34,313 bases of DNA from a virus. Under the pieces are notes generated by a model. The model searched no databases, was not told where the DNA came from, and saw only the letters and a program-made list of their open reading frames with translations. The stretch covers positions 1 through 34,313 of the IMG/VR virus record IMGVR_UViG_3300032011_000057. One strand, 5' to 3'. The first letter of the stretch is position 1. Every line of letters begins with the position of its first letter. The translations under genes and the position numbers were made by a program. Below are positions 533-34,165 of this stretch, one piece after another.

Positions 533-1384
533 TTATAATCCGCAATAACCAGAGTCACATTCGTTGAAATCTGAGTCGAATAATTGAGTTTGTTTGAAGC
601 TTCTTTTTATTTTATCGTAGGTTGTACCGTTTTTGAACGTTCTCTTTCCGTAACCGTTTTGTTCTGCTTCAATAAACCAATCAAATTTGTTTGGGTGTTT
701 TTCGCTCATGTGTTTTAACAAAACAGGCGTTCTATGAAAACACCCTACACAATTGTTCATGTATGCAAATCTCACTGGCTTATCCTTCCAATACTGTTCA
801 ATGGTATCTTTAAATATACCGTTCTCAATCAATGGAAAGGATGGTTTTTGCCATCCTGTATTGGCCCATTTATTACGCTTACCATTTTTAGACTTTCCGA
901 TAATATGTTTGTTTTCTAAAAGTCCTGCTTCATTTGTTTTATGGATCATGGTTTTTGCTCTTGACATCTCATTAGCACGAAATCCAATACGCATTTCAAC
1001 AGGTTCTTTTAAGTGATTTAGCCACCAATCAAATATTGGTTGTACTTTCATCATCTCTGTGCAGAATCTTTGCGTAACATTCGGGAGATATTTTTTATCA
1101 CCTCTTATTATTATTTCATCGAACGTCTTACCTGTTACCCATTCTACTCGTTGCCCAATAAACTGCTCCAAATCAAGCATTGTGTAAATTATAGCATCCT
1201 CTTCCAATGTTCCAATAAACTCTTCTCCAATCCTATCCGAAACATCCTGTCTAATCTTAGCATCTGGAAACATACAACCCTTATCGCTTGTTCGAACTAA
1301 TGCGAATACGTTATAATCAGCAGGATAATTCTTTGCAATATATGCTGATGTTTTTCCTCCACTTATACTGTTAACTGTTTTCAT
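533..1384 (-). CDS. PP-loop ATPase, PAPS-reductase-like (283 aa)
   Basis: The sequence shows the PP-loop SGGKTS at residues 8-13, as in adenine nucleotide alpha-hydrolases (PAPS reductase, DndC, IbrA relatives). A second family-type motif, RIGFRANE, lies at 132-139. Cysteines sit at 37, 108, 212, 215, 276 and 281. The NCVGC pair and the C-terminal CDSGYC could bind a metal or Fe-S cluster. Enzymes of this family activate a substrate by adenylation and often handle sulfur; phage members are usually labelled PAPS reductase without a proven substrate. Start: ATG at 1384, one base after the preceding stop. IbrA-type proteins typically partner ParB-like IbrB proteins, and this phage has a ParB-like protein at 5988-6536, in another transcription unit. 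Sulfur-based nucleic-acid modification or a regulatory role are both possible. Confidence 0.82.
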   Translation of the reverse strand: MKTVNSISGGKTSAYIAKNYPADYNVFALVRTSDKGCMFPDAKIRQDVSDRIGEEFIGTLEEDAIIYTMLDLEQFIGQRVEWVTGKTFDEIIIRGDKKYLPNVTQRFCTEMMKVQPIFDWWLNHLKEPVEMRIGFRANEMSRAKTMIHKTNEAGLLENKHIIGKSKNGKRNKWANTGWQKPSFPLIENGIFKDTIEQYWKDKPVRFAYMNNCVGCFHRTPVLLKHMSEKHPNKFDWFIEAEQNGYGKRTFKNGTTYDKIKRSFKQTQLFDSDFNECDSGYCGL

Positions 1385-4172: not shown

Positions 4173-4838
4173 TTATGGATGCTCTTCGCCCCTTTTATCC
4201 TCTATCATAAGGCAGTCCGGCTTATATATATCTTTAACATCGCATGATGGCTCAAAGGTTGAAACATCGCTTCTTTGATGCTCCCTCCTTATTATTCCGT
4301 TAGATATATCATTTAGCGCCTTTTGGAATAGGTCTATTCCCATGTCGAGAAGCGTATCTCTCCAAAGCTCCCTTGCACCGCCTTTAGGGTCTGACTTCAT
4401 TCTTGGGGGTATCCATGTCCAATCTTGGTACGCAATATCTCCTCTATCAATTCCGGAGTTAAGCCAAAATACTGTACCCCCTGTTATTGCGTCTCCCATT
4501 TTTATTGCCCACTCTATCGAGCTCCTCCCCCTATGCCTTGGAAGCATTGATGGGTGGTAGCCTATCCAGCCGAGTTTTGTTGCATACCTTGCCCTCCTTC
4601 CTATATAATCAAAGCTGTGGGCGGTCATTCCTAAATCCGTGCCTTTTGGCACAGATTCCGATGTAAAACTTCCTGAGCTTGTAATTGGTATATCATTTAT
4701 GCTCGCAAGCCTTCCAATATATTTGTCTCCCTTTGGGCATGATACTCCAACAACCTCATGGCCCAGGTTAAGGCAAAGCCTAAGAGCCTCTTCCCCAAAC
4801 TTCTTTTGTCCACTTATATATATTTTTAGCCTTTTCAC
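4173..4838 (-). CDS. folate-dependent formyltransferase/hydrolase-like protein (221 aa)
   Basis: The fold is that of the formyltransferase N-terminal domain (GART, Fmt, 10-formyl-THF dehydrogenase). The signature YHPSMLPRHRGRSS lies at residues 94-107 and the GIDRGD loop at 129-134, giving His95 and Asp131 as catalytic candidates. The usual Asn two residues before the His is Gly93. The local sequence, including GGTVFW at 120-125, is closest in my memory to the hydrolase domain of 10-formyltetrahydrofolate dehydrogenase, which also lacks that Asn. It starts with GTG overlapping the stop of the GNAT frame as GTGA, so it is translationally coupled to it. It may formylate a base, nucleotide or protein amine, or hydrolyse 10-formyl-THF; the substrate is unknown. 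No C-terminal Fmt tRNA-binding domain is visible, which argues against a Met-tRNA formyltransferase. Confidence 0.85.
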   Translation of the reverse strand: MKRLKIYISGQKKFGEEALRLCLNLGHEVVGVSCPKGDKYIGRLASINDIPITSSGSFTSESVPKGTDLGMTAHSFDYIGRRARYATKLGWIGYHPSMLPRHRGRSSIEWAIKMGDAITGGTVFWLNSGIDRGDIAYQDWTWIPPRMKSDPKGGARELWRDTLLDMGIDLFQKALNDISNGIIRREHQRSDVSTFEPSCDVKDIYKPDCLMIEDKRGEEHP

Positions 4839-5350
4839 CTTTTACCTATGTATTTAAAGCCTTGAACCGCCCTAAAATGTCCACCGTATCCACCGCTTTT
4901 TTCTGACTTGCTTCCTATTGTATTTTTTTTCTTTCCTATTTGGGCTCTTGCAATTGACCCTCCGCTTTTTTTCTTATTTCCTCCATACATTTGTTGGCTT
5001 TTTAATACCCAATTGCTACTCCTGTTAAGATACGCTATAAGCTGGGGGTGGCTTGTATGAAATATTGTCGGTAATTTGTGGCCCCTCCTTCCGTACCCGC
5101 TTTTGTGGTACTCCATAACGTATGTTAAAAACTTTGTTCCTACTCCTGCACCCTGCCACTCTGGAACTGTTACAAGCCTTGTTGCCCTATAGGCGTGAGC
5201 TGTAAACATTGGACAAACTGCCAAGTGTGAAACTGGCTCCCCGTTTACGGTTCCCATAAAGTATTCAGCCGCAGGTGGCATTGGTAGGTCTAAATAATAA
5301 TGCTCTTTAAATATTCCCCAGTAACTTCCTGTGACCTTCCAAATGTCCAA
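4835..5350 (-). CDS. GNAT acyltransferase domain, likely translated as fusion with ABC ATPase
   Basis: A GNAT fold is supported by the acyl-CoA loop WQGAGVG (residues 65-71 counted from the TTG at 5350), the preceding strand RLVTV, and the following helix. The C-terminal 50 residues are Lys/Gly-rich and may bind nucleic acid. No good ATG lies near the domain start: TTG at 5350 or ATG at 5281, which would cut off the first strand. The frame is open upstream to the A10 run at 5380-5389, where it is in the -1 frame relative to the ABC ATPase. Homologous ABC ATPases fused to a predicted acetyltransferase (COG2401) are known, so the natural product is probably a fusion of about 380 residues. Mom of phage Mu, a DNA adenine modifier, is also of GNAT type; whether this one acts on DNA is inference. 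Confidence 0.78.
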   Translation of the reverse strand: MDIWKVTGSYWGIFKEHYYLDLPMPPAAEYFMGTVNGEPVSHLAVCPMFTAHAYRATRLVTVPEWQGAGVGTKFLTYVMEYHKSGYGRRGHKLPTIFHTSHPQLIAYLNRSSNWVLKSQQMYGGNKKKSGGSIARAQIGKKKNTIGSKSEKSGGYGGHFRAVQGFKYIGKR

Positions 5351-5982
5351 TTTGATGTCTGGCCTTGATCCAATTTCGCTTTTTTTTTTACTTCTCCTGT
5401 GGAGGTATCAAGCGCCCAATCTGGCTGTATATACTCAAGCACATCATAATGGCATGATAGCAACACAACCCTTCTACCCTTTGTCCTCCTAAATGACTTT
5501 GAGAATGCCATTGCACCAATTCTTGCAATCTGCCTATCAACAACTGATGTAAACTCATCAACAATAACATCATCCCCCCCATCTGCAAGCACTCTCGCAA
5601 GGCCTGCTCTAAACTGCTGACCGTTTGATAATGCGTGGAACGGTCTCAGCCAAGATGGAACATCTCCAAGTCCAACAGAGGCGAGCAGTCCTGTTACCGT
5701 GTTGAAGTCTCCCTCTGGGCTTATGCAGTCAACTATTGGCTTGTCCTTTTCCCATCCTCCGTACAGGTCCTCAATCTTTCCTCCTCCAAAAAGCTTATTT
5801 CCAATTGATGTCTTTCCACTTCCACTTGGGCCAACAATAACTCCAATCTGCCAATCTCCCTCAACTGGAACATCAACATCAAGATTAAATTCGTCTCCCC
5901 TTTCTGCATTAAACAGGGACTTTACTCTGTTTGCTCGGTAGCTTTTAAAGTTTTTTGTTTTATTTCTTACGCTTACTTTCAT
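5290..5982 (-). CDS. soluble ABC-type ATPase (COG2401-like N-terminal half)
   Basis: All core ABC motifs are present: Walker A GPSGSGKTS at residues 51-59, signature LSNGQQFR at 118-125, Walker B with catalytic Glu in VIVDEF at 139-144, D-loop SVVDR at 146-150, and H-loop His178 in SCHYD. There is no membrane segment, so it is not a transporter subunit by itself. In zero frame the protein continues about 30 residues past a GTA followed by nine A's and ends at 5290. In the -1 frame it continues into the GNAT domain. Soluble ABC ATPases of this kind often dimerise on nucleic acid. The gene follows the ParB-like gene by 5 bases, so the two are co-expressed. Its DNA is visibly richer in G+C than most of the genome. 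Confidence 0.88.
   Translation of the reverse strand: MKVSVRNKTKNFKSYRANRVKSLFNAERGDEFNLDVDVPVEGDWQIGVIVGPSGSGKTSIGNKLFGGGKIEDLYGGWEKDKPIVDCISPEGDFNTVTGLLASVGLGDVPSWLRPFHALSNGQQFRAGLARVLADGGDDVIVDEFTSVVDRQIARIGAMAFSKSFRRTKGRRVVLLSCHYDVLEYIQPDWALDTSTGEVKKKAKLDQGQTSNWTFGRSQEVTGEYLKSIII
5380..5389 (-). promoter_or_regulatory. A10 slippery run joining ABC ATPase and GNAT frames
   Basis: The minus strand reads GTA followed by AAA AAA AAA GCG. A -1 slip, or one extra A added by polymerase slippage, gives Lys-Lys-Lys-Ser-Glu-Ile and enters the GNAT frame without a stop. A-runs of this kind support -1 ribosomal frameshifting (dnaX-type) and transcriptional slippage. A sequencing length error in the homopolymer would give the same picture. 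Confidence 0.6.
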
Positions 5983-5987
5983 GGCTA

Positions 5988-6536
5988 TTATGTTACAACA
6001 ATTTTACACTCAAATCCCTCCTCAGATAGCCTTTTAAATATTTGCTCTTGCTCTCTTTCGCTTACGCACTTAACGATAACCCCGTACTGCTCCTTATAGC
6101 CTACGCCCTCATCACTAAACGCATCCTCTGGTGGAGAGTATGGCTCGCCCAGGTCTCCGCCATCGGACGCCTCTGGCCAAGTATCCAACCCCCACTCCTC
6201 AAGCTTTTCGGCATCCCAATCGGATGCAAGCATATCCCAATCCCATTCTCCTCCGCTTACGTTATCCTTGATAATAAACTGTCTTTGTTCATCCTCTGTA
6301 AGATCCTCTGCTTTTATTATTGGTACTTCCTTTAGTCCGGCCTCTTTACAAGCTTTCAATCTCATGTTCCCCCCTAAAACTATCATATCGTCATTAACTA
6401 CAATAGGACGTATTTTAAGCATCTTAGGAAACTCCTTAATACTATTGACTAACTTTCTAAAGTTGTCATCCTTTATAACTCTGGGATTGTTAGGATTGCT
6501 CTTTACCTCTGATATTTTAACTGTCTCTGTTTTCAT
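5988..6536 (-). CDS. ParB/Srx-fold domain protein (182 aa)
   Basis: Residues 1-90 match the ParB N-terminal nuclease/CTPase-like domain: an opening NPNNPR motif, a helix containing KLVNSIKEF, then RPIVV and the GGNMRLKACKEAG motif at 55-67. A linker with WDAEKLEEWGLD follows, a segment common in phage ParB-like proteins next to DNA-modification genes. The last 35 residues form a predicted alpha/beta unit. There is no central HTH of a true partition ParB and no methyltransferase domain, so a plasmid-partition role is unlikely. Its start overlaps the upstream membrane protein stop as ATGA, and the ABC ATPase gene follows by 5 bases. Possible roles: sequence recognition for the cassette, nuclease, or IbrB-like regulator. 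Confidence 0.87.
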   Translation of the reverse strand: MKTETVKISEVKSNPNNPRVIKDDNFRKLVNSIKEFPKMLKIRPIVVNDDMIVLGGNMRLKACKEAGLKEVPIIKAEDLTEDEQRQFIIKDNVSGGEWDWDMLASDWDAEKLEEWGLDTWPEASDGGDLGEPYSPPEDAFSDEGVGYKEQYGVIVKCVSEREQEQIFKRLSEEGFECKIVVT

Positions 6537-6775
6537 ACTATGATGTTATAGATAAGTATTGGAATTAAGAAGATAAATAACCTTGCAAAGGTGTATTTTA
6601 CGTTAGACATATCTTTGGCCCAGGTTGTGAATTGGTCGTGATGTCTGTGTGGTAATAGGATATGTAAACACCTATCAGCCAACCAAATCACAAAGAGGAA
6701 TACAATTGATAAATACCCTGTTATTCTTAATAAAAAATTTACTTTAGATGATTCTTGAACCTCTGCTTTCTCCAT
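6533..6775 (-). CDS. small two-span membrane protein (80 aa)
   Basis: Two hydrophobic segments are clear, about residues 14-34 and 62-80, separated by a loop with several His and Asp residues; the N-terminus is polar. The C-terminus ends inside the second segment. It is translationally coupled (ATGA) to the ParB-like gene and so belongs to the cassette, not to the lysis genes 7 kb away, although the size and topology would also suit a holin. Function unknown. Confidence 0.7.
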   Translation of the reverse strand: MEKAEVQESSKVNFLLRITGYLSIVFLFVIWLADRCLHILLPHRHHDQFTTWAKDMSNVKYTFARLFIFLIPILIYNIIV

Positions 6776-32971: not shown

Positions 32972-34165
32972 ATGCAGAACAATTTTTGGACTAATCTATT
33001 CGGGATATCAAGTGGTAAAAACGACAATTTAATGAAGATGTTGAGCAGAAAGCACAACCAATTTTGGGGGAATACTAAGCCAACTTGGATCGATACTGAT
33101 AAACCTTATGAGCTGTATATACAAATTCCCGAACTAAGAACGGTTATTAATAAGCGTGCAATAATGATGTCAAGTGGTGTTCCAAAAGTTTGTGACTTGG
33201 AAGGTAATCCGGTTGAATCTCATTGGATGCAGGACTTGATTAATCAACCAAACCCAACTCAATCGTGGTCGGATGTAATTTATTCACTCGCTGTTAATGA
33301 TGGACTTTTTAATAATTCTTTTGCCTATTGCCCAAAACGCTCCTTTGATATTCGAAACCTGTTTGTTCCTCTTCCGAGTAATCAAATTAAGATTGTTGGA
33401 ACGGGTAAGTACTTGGATCAGTTGGACACCAATGGATTAATAAAGGAATTCCAATTTTGGTATGATACTCAAAAGAAAGATATTATTGAAGTTGAAGATA
33501 TGGTTTATCTAAACACTCCGGATGGAATAAACCTGTTGAACCCCGTTAATAGAATTGATACGCTTAAATATCCTCTAAGTAATATAATGGCTCAGTATAA
33601 TAAAAGAAATGTTATCCTTGAAAATATGGGTGCAATTGGAATCCTATCAAGCAAGAAAAGTGACATGGGCGGTTCTCTTCCTATGACTCCAGAGGAAAGA
33701 GATGAGATACAGGCAGATTGGTTAAAAAGAAGCAAAGATAAATTGGTTATGACTGAGTCGGATGTTAATTGGACTCCAATGTCTTATCCAACTAAGGATC
33801 TTATGTTATTCGAGGAACTAACGGAAGATAAGATGGCAATCATTGACGCTTATGGCCTTTCTTATTATCTATTTAGTCAAGCAAAGGGATCTACTTTTAC
33901 CAATATAAAGGAAGGAATGAGAATGAGTTACCAGGATACTATTATTCCGGAAACCAATCAGATGTACGCAACTATGAGTCAGCAATTAGGCCTAATCGAT
34001 GAAGGTGTTTATATCAAACCGGATTTCAGTCATATACCAGTATTGCAAGATGATCTAAACGCAGAAGCAAGCGCAATGAATCTTAGGGCCGATGCAGTAA
34101 ACAAAATAATAAATGCAGGTGTTGAGCTGGATGAAGAAGAAAAAAGAAATCTTTTAGGCTTATAA
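32972..34165 (+). CDS. HK97-family portal protein (397 aa)
   Basis: The sequence fits the HK97-type phage portal: helical N-terminal part (WTNLFGISSG), the conserved TVINKRAIMMSSGVPKV region, the NPVNRIDTL segment, and the ring-forming region with YATMSQQLGLIDEGVYIKPDF near the C-terminus. Length is typical. The portal forms the dodecameric ring for packaging and tail attachment. It is the only gene on the plus strand and lacks close co-transcription with terminase or capsid genes, which is unusual for this module. Its stop codon TAA overlaps the first two bases of the right terminal repeat. Confidence 0.94.
   Translation: MQNNFWTNLFGISSGKNDNLMKMLSRKHNQFWGNTKPTWIDTDKPYELYIQIPELRTVINKRAIMMSSGVPKVCDLEGNPVESHWMQDLINQPNPTQSWSDVIYSLAVNDGLFNNSFAYCPKRSFDIRNLFVPLPSNQIKIVGTGKYLDQLDTNGLIKEFQFWYDTQKKDIIEVEDMVYLNTPDGINLLNPVNRIDTLKYPLSNIMAQYNKRNVILENMGAIGILSSKKSDMGGSLPMTPEERDEIQADWLKRSKDKLVMTESDVNWTPMSYPTKDLMLFEELTEDKMAIIDAYGLSYYLFSQAKGSTFTNIKEGMRMSYQDTIIPETNQMYATMSQQLGLIDEGVYIKPDFSHIPVLQDDLNAEASAMNLRADAVNKIINAGVELDEEEKRNLLGL

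Follow-up and report, generated by a model that had tools for sequence, protein, structure and literature searches.

A minus-strand gene cassette beside the terminase genes

The window analysed here is the whole of a 34,313-base virus record, in which a DNA-metabolism block on one side and the terminase genes on the other enclose a group of closely packed minus-strand genes. The locus raises the question of what a phage gains by combining a ParB-like protein, an ABC ATPase, a GNAT domain and a formyltransferase-fold protein (FT). The features of the locus are:

6533..6775, minus strand: two-span membrane protein, 80 aa, overlapping the ParB-like gene
5988..6536, minus strand: ParB-like protein, 182 aa, with ParB_N (PF02195, 2.9e-8) and a C-terminal adaptor
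5991..6104, minus strand: adaptor ('SM') domain, C-terminus of the ParB-like protein (phrog_28816 match, residues 144-180)
5290..5982, minus strand: ABC ATPase ORF, 230 aa, zero frame (PF00005; PHROG_11143 residues 1-196)
5380..5389, minus strand: A10 run with the candidate slip site A_AAA_AAA (GTA AAA AAA AAA GCG in the ABC frame)
4835..5407, minus strand: GNAT reading frame, -1 relative to ABC (own GNAT HMM, 242 bits, model positions 2-171)
5365-4841, minus strand: GNAT domain (PHROG_11143 residues 205-351), with the stop TGA at 4837-4835
4173..4838, minus strand: FT, 221 aa (PF00551, Formyl_trans_N, 4.8e-15; G93-x-H95-P-S ... D131)

The tight linkage described in the initial annotation was confirmed, with an ATGA overlap between the membrane protein and ParB-like genes (6536-6533), a GTGA overlap between GNAT and FT (4838-4835), and a gap of 5 bases between the ParB-like and ABC genes. 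Downstream of FT (4838-4173) lie a DUF5681 gene and then the terminase large subunit. The domains named in the initial annotation were likewise recovered, namely ParB_N (2.9e-8), ABC_tran (4.8e-6), Formyl_trans_N (4.8e-15) and GNAT, the last through PHROG_11143 (3e-43) and weakly in Pfam.

The ABC ORF scored 27.7 bits against PF00005 (cut-off 25), its predicted fold matches ABC nucleotide-binding domains, and the conserved motifs GPSGSGKTS, LSNGQ and VIVDEF (Walker A, signature and Walker B) identify it as an ABC ATPase. The GNAT domain matched general GNAT models only, with a Pfam score of 22.5 that falls under the curated cut-off of 27; nevertheless it keeps the CoA-binding motif QGxGxG (EWQGAGVG), with the G positions invariant in 44 sequences, in line with the acyl-CoA motif Q/R-x-x-G-x-G/A of GNAT acyltransferases. 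PADLOC matches were weak and generic, and membership in a known defence system was rejected.

Conservation of the cassette

Relatives were drawn from phage records, viral contigs and one-per-species bacterial genomes. At least 592 relatives were confirmed among the viral contigs, the best 80 of 592 being used, and 264 among the bacterial genomes, again with the best 80 used; 176 loci were scored using profiles built in this analysis. The adaptor, detected with our own HMM, lies directly upstream of ABC-GNAT in 162 of the 170 loci with enough upstream sequence, and FT lies downstream in 119 of the 135 loci for which 2.5 kb or more of sequence could be scored. Both adjoin ABC-GNAT far more often than expected by chance. 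The loci come from phages and prophages whose hosts span many bacterial phyla. Judged by gene order and sequence, the cassette is real and widespread, and its conserved core is the adaptor (with or without a ParB domain), ABC-GNAT and FT.

The initial annotation had counted four genes that should recur together. This held for the adaptor, ABC-GNAT and FT and failed for the membrane protein, which we place outside the conserved cassette because only the closest relative, L002, has a homologue. FT itself is absent from 16 of the 135 loci and from a distant Streptococcus/Lactococcus branch, which means that the core can do without formyl transfer. In Leptospira phage LE3 (L181:3501-5122), a ParB-like gene and a single-ORF GNAT protein stand a few genes ahead of the terminase and no FT is annotated in the vicinity; spirochaete phages apparently carry a version lacking FT.

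The ParB-like protein and its adaptor domain

A ParB partition protein would carry ParB_N, HTH and dimerisation domains and have a ParA partner; the window protein consists solely of ParB_N and a 40-aa adaptor, and its score lies under the NCBIfam partition cut-off. The adaptor spans about 40 aa with the motif YKxQYGVIVxC...LxxxGxxCKVVxx, and is still recognisable in distant Streptococcus, Lactococcus and Pasteurella versions. In 69 loci it makes up the C-terminal part of a ParB-size ORF, and in 96 it is a short or stand-alone gene, so the constant partner of ABC-GNAT is the adaptor rather than the ParB domain. The inclusion of a ParB-like protein in the set thus stands for its C-terminal adaptor, while the full ParB domain is dispensable. 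The stand-alone adaptor genes of other phages encode about 40–50 aa and overlap or abut the ABC start. In Microbacterium phage Appa, a ParB-like gene is also found beside Mom, and the SM-like domain was not found in that ParB; the adaptor therefore looks specific to ABC-GNAT.

Reading-frame break between the ABC and GNAT domains

The initial annotation had described one ABC ATPase with a GNAT domain. Both domains are present, but in the window they occupy two ORFs in different frames, with the GNAT frame at -1 relative to ABC, the junction at the A10 run (5389-5380, minus strand) and the last ~28 ABC codons overlapping the GNAT frame. ABC-GNAT is a single ORF in 151/176 loci. The split loci comprise the clade holding the window and two members of a sister group; in the tree, 17 split members fall in one clade and two more stand beside fused relatives, always with the break in the -1 phase. 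An in-frame A_AAA_AAA or A_AAA_AAG was found in the short linker of 19/19 split and 3/151 fused loci (Fisher p 2e-22, a value that overstates independence since the sequences are related). The 19 split loci are those of the main family, minus duplicates and two loci (L068, L093) whose breaks lie elsewhere, as expected of ordinary mutation or error.

A homopolymer error made during sequencing or assembly could also produce such a split, since sites like an A10 run are typically prone to indels. We consider this extremely improbable: 19 separate contigs share the phase while their runs vary from A6G to A11 and their ABC identity falls as low as 60%, and the -1 split, mostly without an A-run, recurs in phages of Streptococcus, Lactococcus and Oenococcus that other projects sequenced. 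In these phages, which form a distant branch, the GNAT is also in the -1 frame and the heptamer is mostly lacking.

It is also conceivable that in this clade ABC and GNAT are translated separately, as two genes, and that the A-run is incidental. The domains might function unfused as well as in their single-ORF relatives, and the window does contain an in-frame TTG at 5350. This codon, the sole in-frame start near the beginning of the GNAT domain, lies inside the conserved domain, and in most split loci the -1 frame offers no start codon upstream of the conserved N-terminus of GNAT. Separate translation would furthermore leave unexplained a heptamer kept in all 19 split loci, including three of 54-58% GC, and the uniform -1 phase, which makes it very unlikely.

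The best reading of these sequences is a programmed -1 frameshift between ABC and GNAT, because the heptamer and phase are kept across differing ABC identity (down to 60%), GC content and run length (A6G to A11), with few upstream starts. The slippery heptamer is in frame, it is followed by a -1 continuation, and both are conserved. In dnaX-type programmed -1 frameshifting at A_AAA_AAG, a slippery heptamer in the zero frame yields short and long products. The window heptamer is likewise in the zero frame and would give a short and a long product; unlike the dnaX type, the window clade lacks a consistent stem, has an SD-like sequence in only some members, and contains long A-runs that allow transcriptional slippage. 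The short A-runs found in other members favour slipping of the ribosome rather than of RNA polymerase. A downstream RNA stem as stimulator was rejected, as the region downstream of the slip site gave no general signal and no conserved structure, with only L005 standing out (z -3.2). An SD-like sequence occurs near the slip site in about 7/19 split loci.

Dual coding of the overlap is likewise not claimed, since the 'III*' tail of ABC results from reading the GNAT codons for HYYL in the other frame, and fused relatives have it too. Three loci with a single-ORF ABC-GNAT (L143, L092 and L095) contain an in-frame A_AAA_AAR in the linker, possibly as relics or as sites of shifts to a truncated product. 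In Streptococcus phage Javan420 (L012:4500-5000), a second break lies within the GNAT, likely in a decayed copy.

Branch and chemistry of the formyltransferase-fold protein

By profile comparison, the best solved relative of FT is 4qpd (5e-44), the hydrolase domain of 10-formyl-THF dehydrogenase (FDH), and its predicted fold (model pLDDT 91.6) is closest to 2bw0 (E 2.5e-18, TM 0.80). H95 and D131, which correspond to FDH His106 and Asp142, are invariant in an alignment of 50 FT sequences. The 10-formyl-THF amine formyltransferases PurN, Fmt and ArnA have an Asn two positions N-terminal to the catalytic His; at this position, 149 FTs have G (103), I (36), V (7) or A (3), and none has Asn. Canonical PurN or Fmt function was rejected on the lack of this Asn and on scores below the NCBIfam equivalog cut-offs. 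The closest sequence and fold, the retained His/Asp pair and the replaced Asn place FT in the FDH hydrolase-domain branch. The designation as a folate-type formyltransferase applies to the fold, and amine formylation is made less likely by the lack of Asn in 149/149.

Asn at this position is typical of amine formylators and Ile of FDH (PMC4388273). FDH hands its formyl group to a phosphopantetheine thiol (PMC8748788), and for HypX, a relative, transfer to CoA has been proposed (PMC6802093). Because FT lacks the amine-formylator Asn and is nearest to the thiol-using FDH hydrolase domain, its sequence suggests a thiol acceptor as more likely than direct formylation of DNA. FT shares with the FDH hydrolase domain and the HypX N-terminal domain the fold and the His-Asp pair, and with FDH also the lack of the formyltransferase Asn; it differs from both as a stand-alone phage protein encoded next to a GNAT, without a carrier-protein, aldehyde dehydrogenase or hydratase domain. 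Since this thiol-type FT adjoins a GNAT that would use acyl-CoA, we tentatively propose formyl-CoA as its product, made for the GNAT, although the odds are against this particular donor. A short FT subfamily of about 155-170 aa occurs in L006, L008 and L009, with much of the N-terminal half gone and the HPS and Asp kept.

Exchange with mom

The Mu system offers a comparison for the genomic context, as Com is the translational regulator (activator) of mom in Mu. In 26 Mu-like loci, a Com zinc ribbon lies just upstream of the cassette; in Pseudomonas phage Komp_PAO1_1 it is immediately upstream (PF10122, 9e-21). The right end of Porphyromonas phage 012a holds a Mom gene; in phages 011a and 008a this place is taken by the adaptor, ABC-GNAT and FT (BK068093 vs BK068092/BK068090). 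Identity between 012a and 011a is 88% across 4,755 bp upstream and 81% in the final 91 bp. As their alignment indicates, this is a direct exchange of the cassette with mom between near-identical phages.

Mom was found in 0/27 cassette-bearing records, with 3/3 Mom controls recovered, a result that gives weak support because Mom is rare overall. The window's own phage has no Com or mom context, the place of Com being occupied by the ParB-like gene, and no match to Mom (PF25680) was found anywhere in the window. A profile-profile comparison of the GNAT with four Moms was not significant, so the GNAT was rejected as a Mom homologue; sequence kinship is not detectable beyond the superfamily. Based on the upstream Com, the exchange with mom and the ParB-like gene beside Mom in Appa, we therefore argue that the cassette probably does Mom's job.

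The cassette resembles Mu com-mom (Mom PF25680, Com PF10122) in its right-end or late-region place, a small upstream gene, the Com zinc ribbon, a GNAT-type modifying enzyme and the mutual exchange between near-identical phages. It is unlike com-mom in having a GNAT with no detectable sequence relation to Mom and in adding an ABC ATPase, an adaptor or ParB-like protein and FT.

Proposed function

Taken together with its context, the cassette probably modifies the bases of the phage's own DNA, giving Mom-like protection from restriction with other enzymes. Co-occurrence, Com in 26 loci and the replacement of mom favour the earlier proposal of a ParB-assisted, ABC-powered acyl or formyl modification of DNA; the membrane protein drops out of it, the ParB domain is dispensable and FT more likely loads a thiol. 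Observations that weigh against a Mom-like role are that the GNAT shows no sequence relation to Mom past the superfamily level, that some loci lack FT, that neither Com nor mom accompanies the cassette in the window, and that the slip site has no conserved downstream structure.

Alternatively, the cassette could modify a protein such as host RNA polymerase, the ribosome or a restriction enzyme, with the GNAT acting on a lysine or N-terminus and ABC/ParB choosing the target. There are known cases of phage GNATs acetylating host proteins (Rac, cited in PMC7824862), and this GNAT has no sequence link to Mom. A protein target leaves the upstream Com, the exchange with mom at the same site and the ParB link unexplained, and we judge it quite unlikely.

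For modification of DNA, the following scheme can be drawn. Most ribosomes would make ABC alone and some would shift by -1 at the A-run, or translate transcripts that had already slipped, to make ABC-GNAT, so that a mixed ABC dimer could form. The dimer would grip or move on DNA, and the adaptor or ParB part would dock ABC or switch it with nucleotide. Among the least certain steps, FT would transfer the formyl group of 10-formyl-THF to a thiol, with CoA the simplest choice, and the GNAT would pass that acyl group to the exocyclic amine of a base. The complete relay from folate through CoA to DNA, in which FT makes formyl-CoA, an ABC-clamped GNAT formylates a base amine and the -1 frameshift sets the dose, is speculative and doubtful as a whole. 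To our knowledge, base-amine formylation with formyl-CoA as donor has not been described for any genome; such a relay would take the place of Mom in many phage groups.

FT might instead act after the GNAT, which would attach an aminoacyl-type group to the base that FT then formylates directly from 10-formyl-THF. The gene order, ABC-GNAT then FT, would agree with this, and the absence of FT from some loci fits a tailoring enzyme and makes such a late role possible. The Asn of known amine formylators is, however, gone in all 149 FTs (PMC4388273), and this order of reactions seems unlikely.

Known systems and significance

ABC-GNAT was earlier predicted to be a DNA-base acylator (PMC7824862, citing Iyer 2013), and Tenacibaculum phage pT24 of that paper, which has the same type of ABC-GNAT protein, was among the relatives found. 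The initial annotation, which knew of no characterised system with this set, was correct for the full cassette, for which we found no description in the literature searched; for ABC-GNAT, base acylation had already been predicted in PMC7824862. The review PMC7824862 describes ABC-GNAT only, with no mention of the adaptor, FT, frameshift or mom swap. Within the literature searched, the composition of the cassette, the ABC/GNAT frameshift, the thiol-type FT partner and the exchange with mom look new.

If the proposed function is true, a common phage gene set would have a specific job in anti-restriction DNA modification, interchangeable with mom, possibly with a new acyl donor. The -1 frameshift would then apparently set the ratio of ATPase to enzyme-fused ATPase in phages. 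The analysis also corrects the database annotations 'phosphoribosylglycinamide formyltransferase', 'ABC iron siderophore transporter' and 'acr candidate'. What is labelled 'acr candidate' in L008:4876-5004 and in comparable Porphyromonas records is the adaptor domain. The 172-aa 'DNA modification methylase' of Streptococcus phages is a ParB-like protein only, and their 'ABC iron siderophore transporter' corresponds to the ABC part.

Elsewhere in the window, 533-1384 (minus strand) encodes a PAPS-reductase-like protein (phrog_424) with weak similarity to DndC/SspD; proteins of this type have also been connected with sulphur modification of DNA. L076 has a homologue of this gene, and L006 has, close to FT, a gene that appears similar from reading of its ORF only. 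The portal gene (32972-34165) is on the plus strand, although the minus strand carries the genes for terminase, protease, capsid and tail, which points to an inverted portal or a rearrangement.
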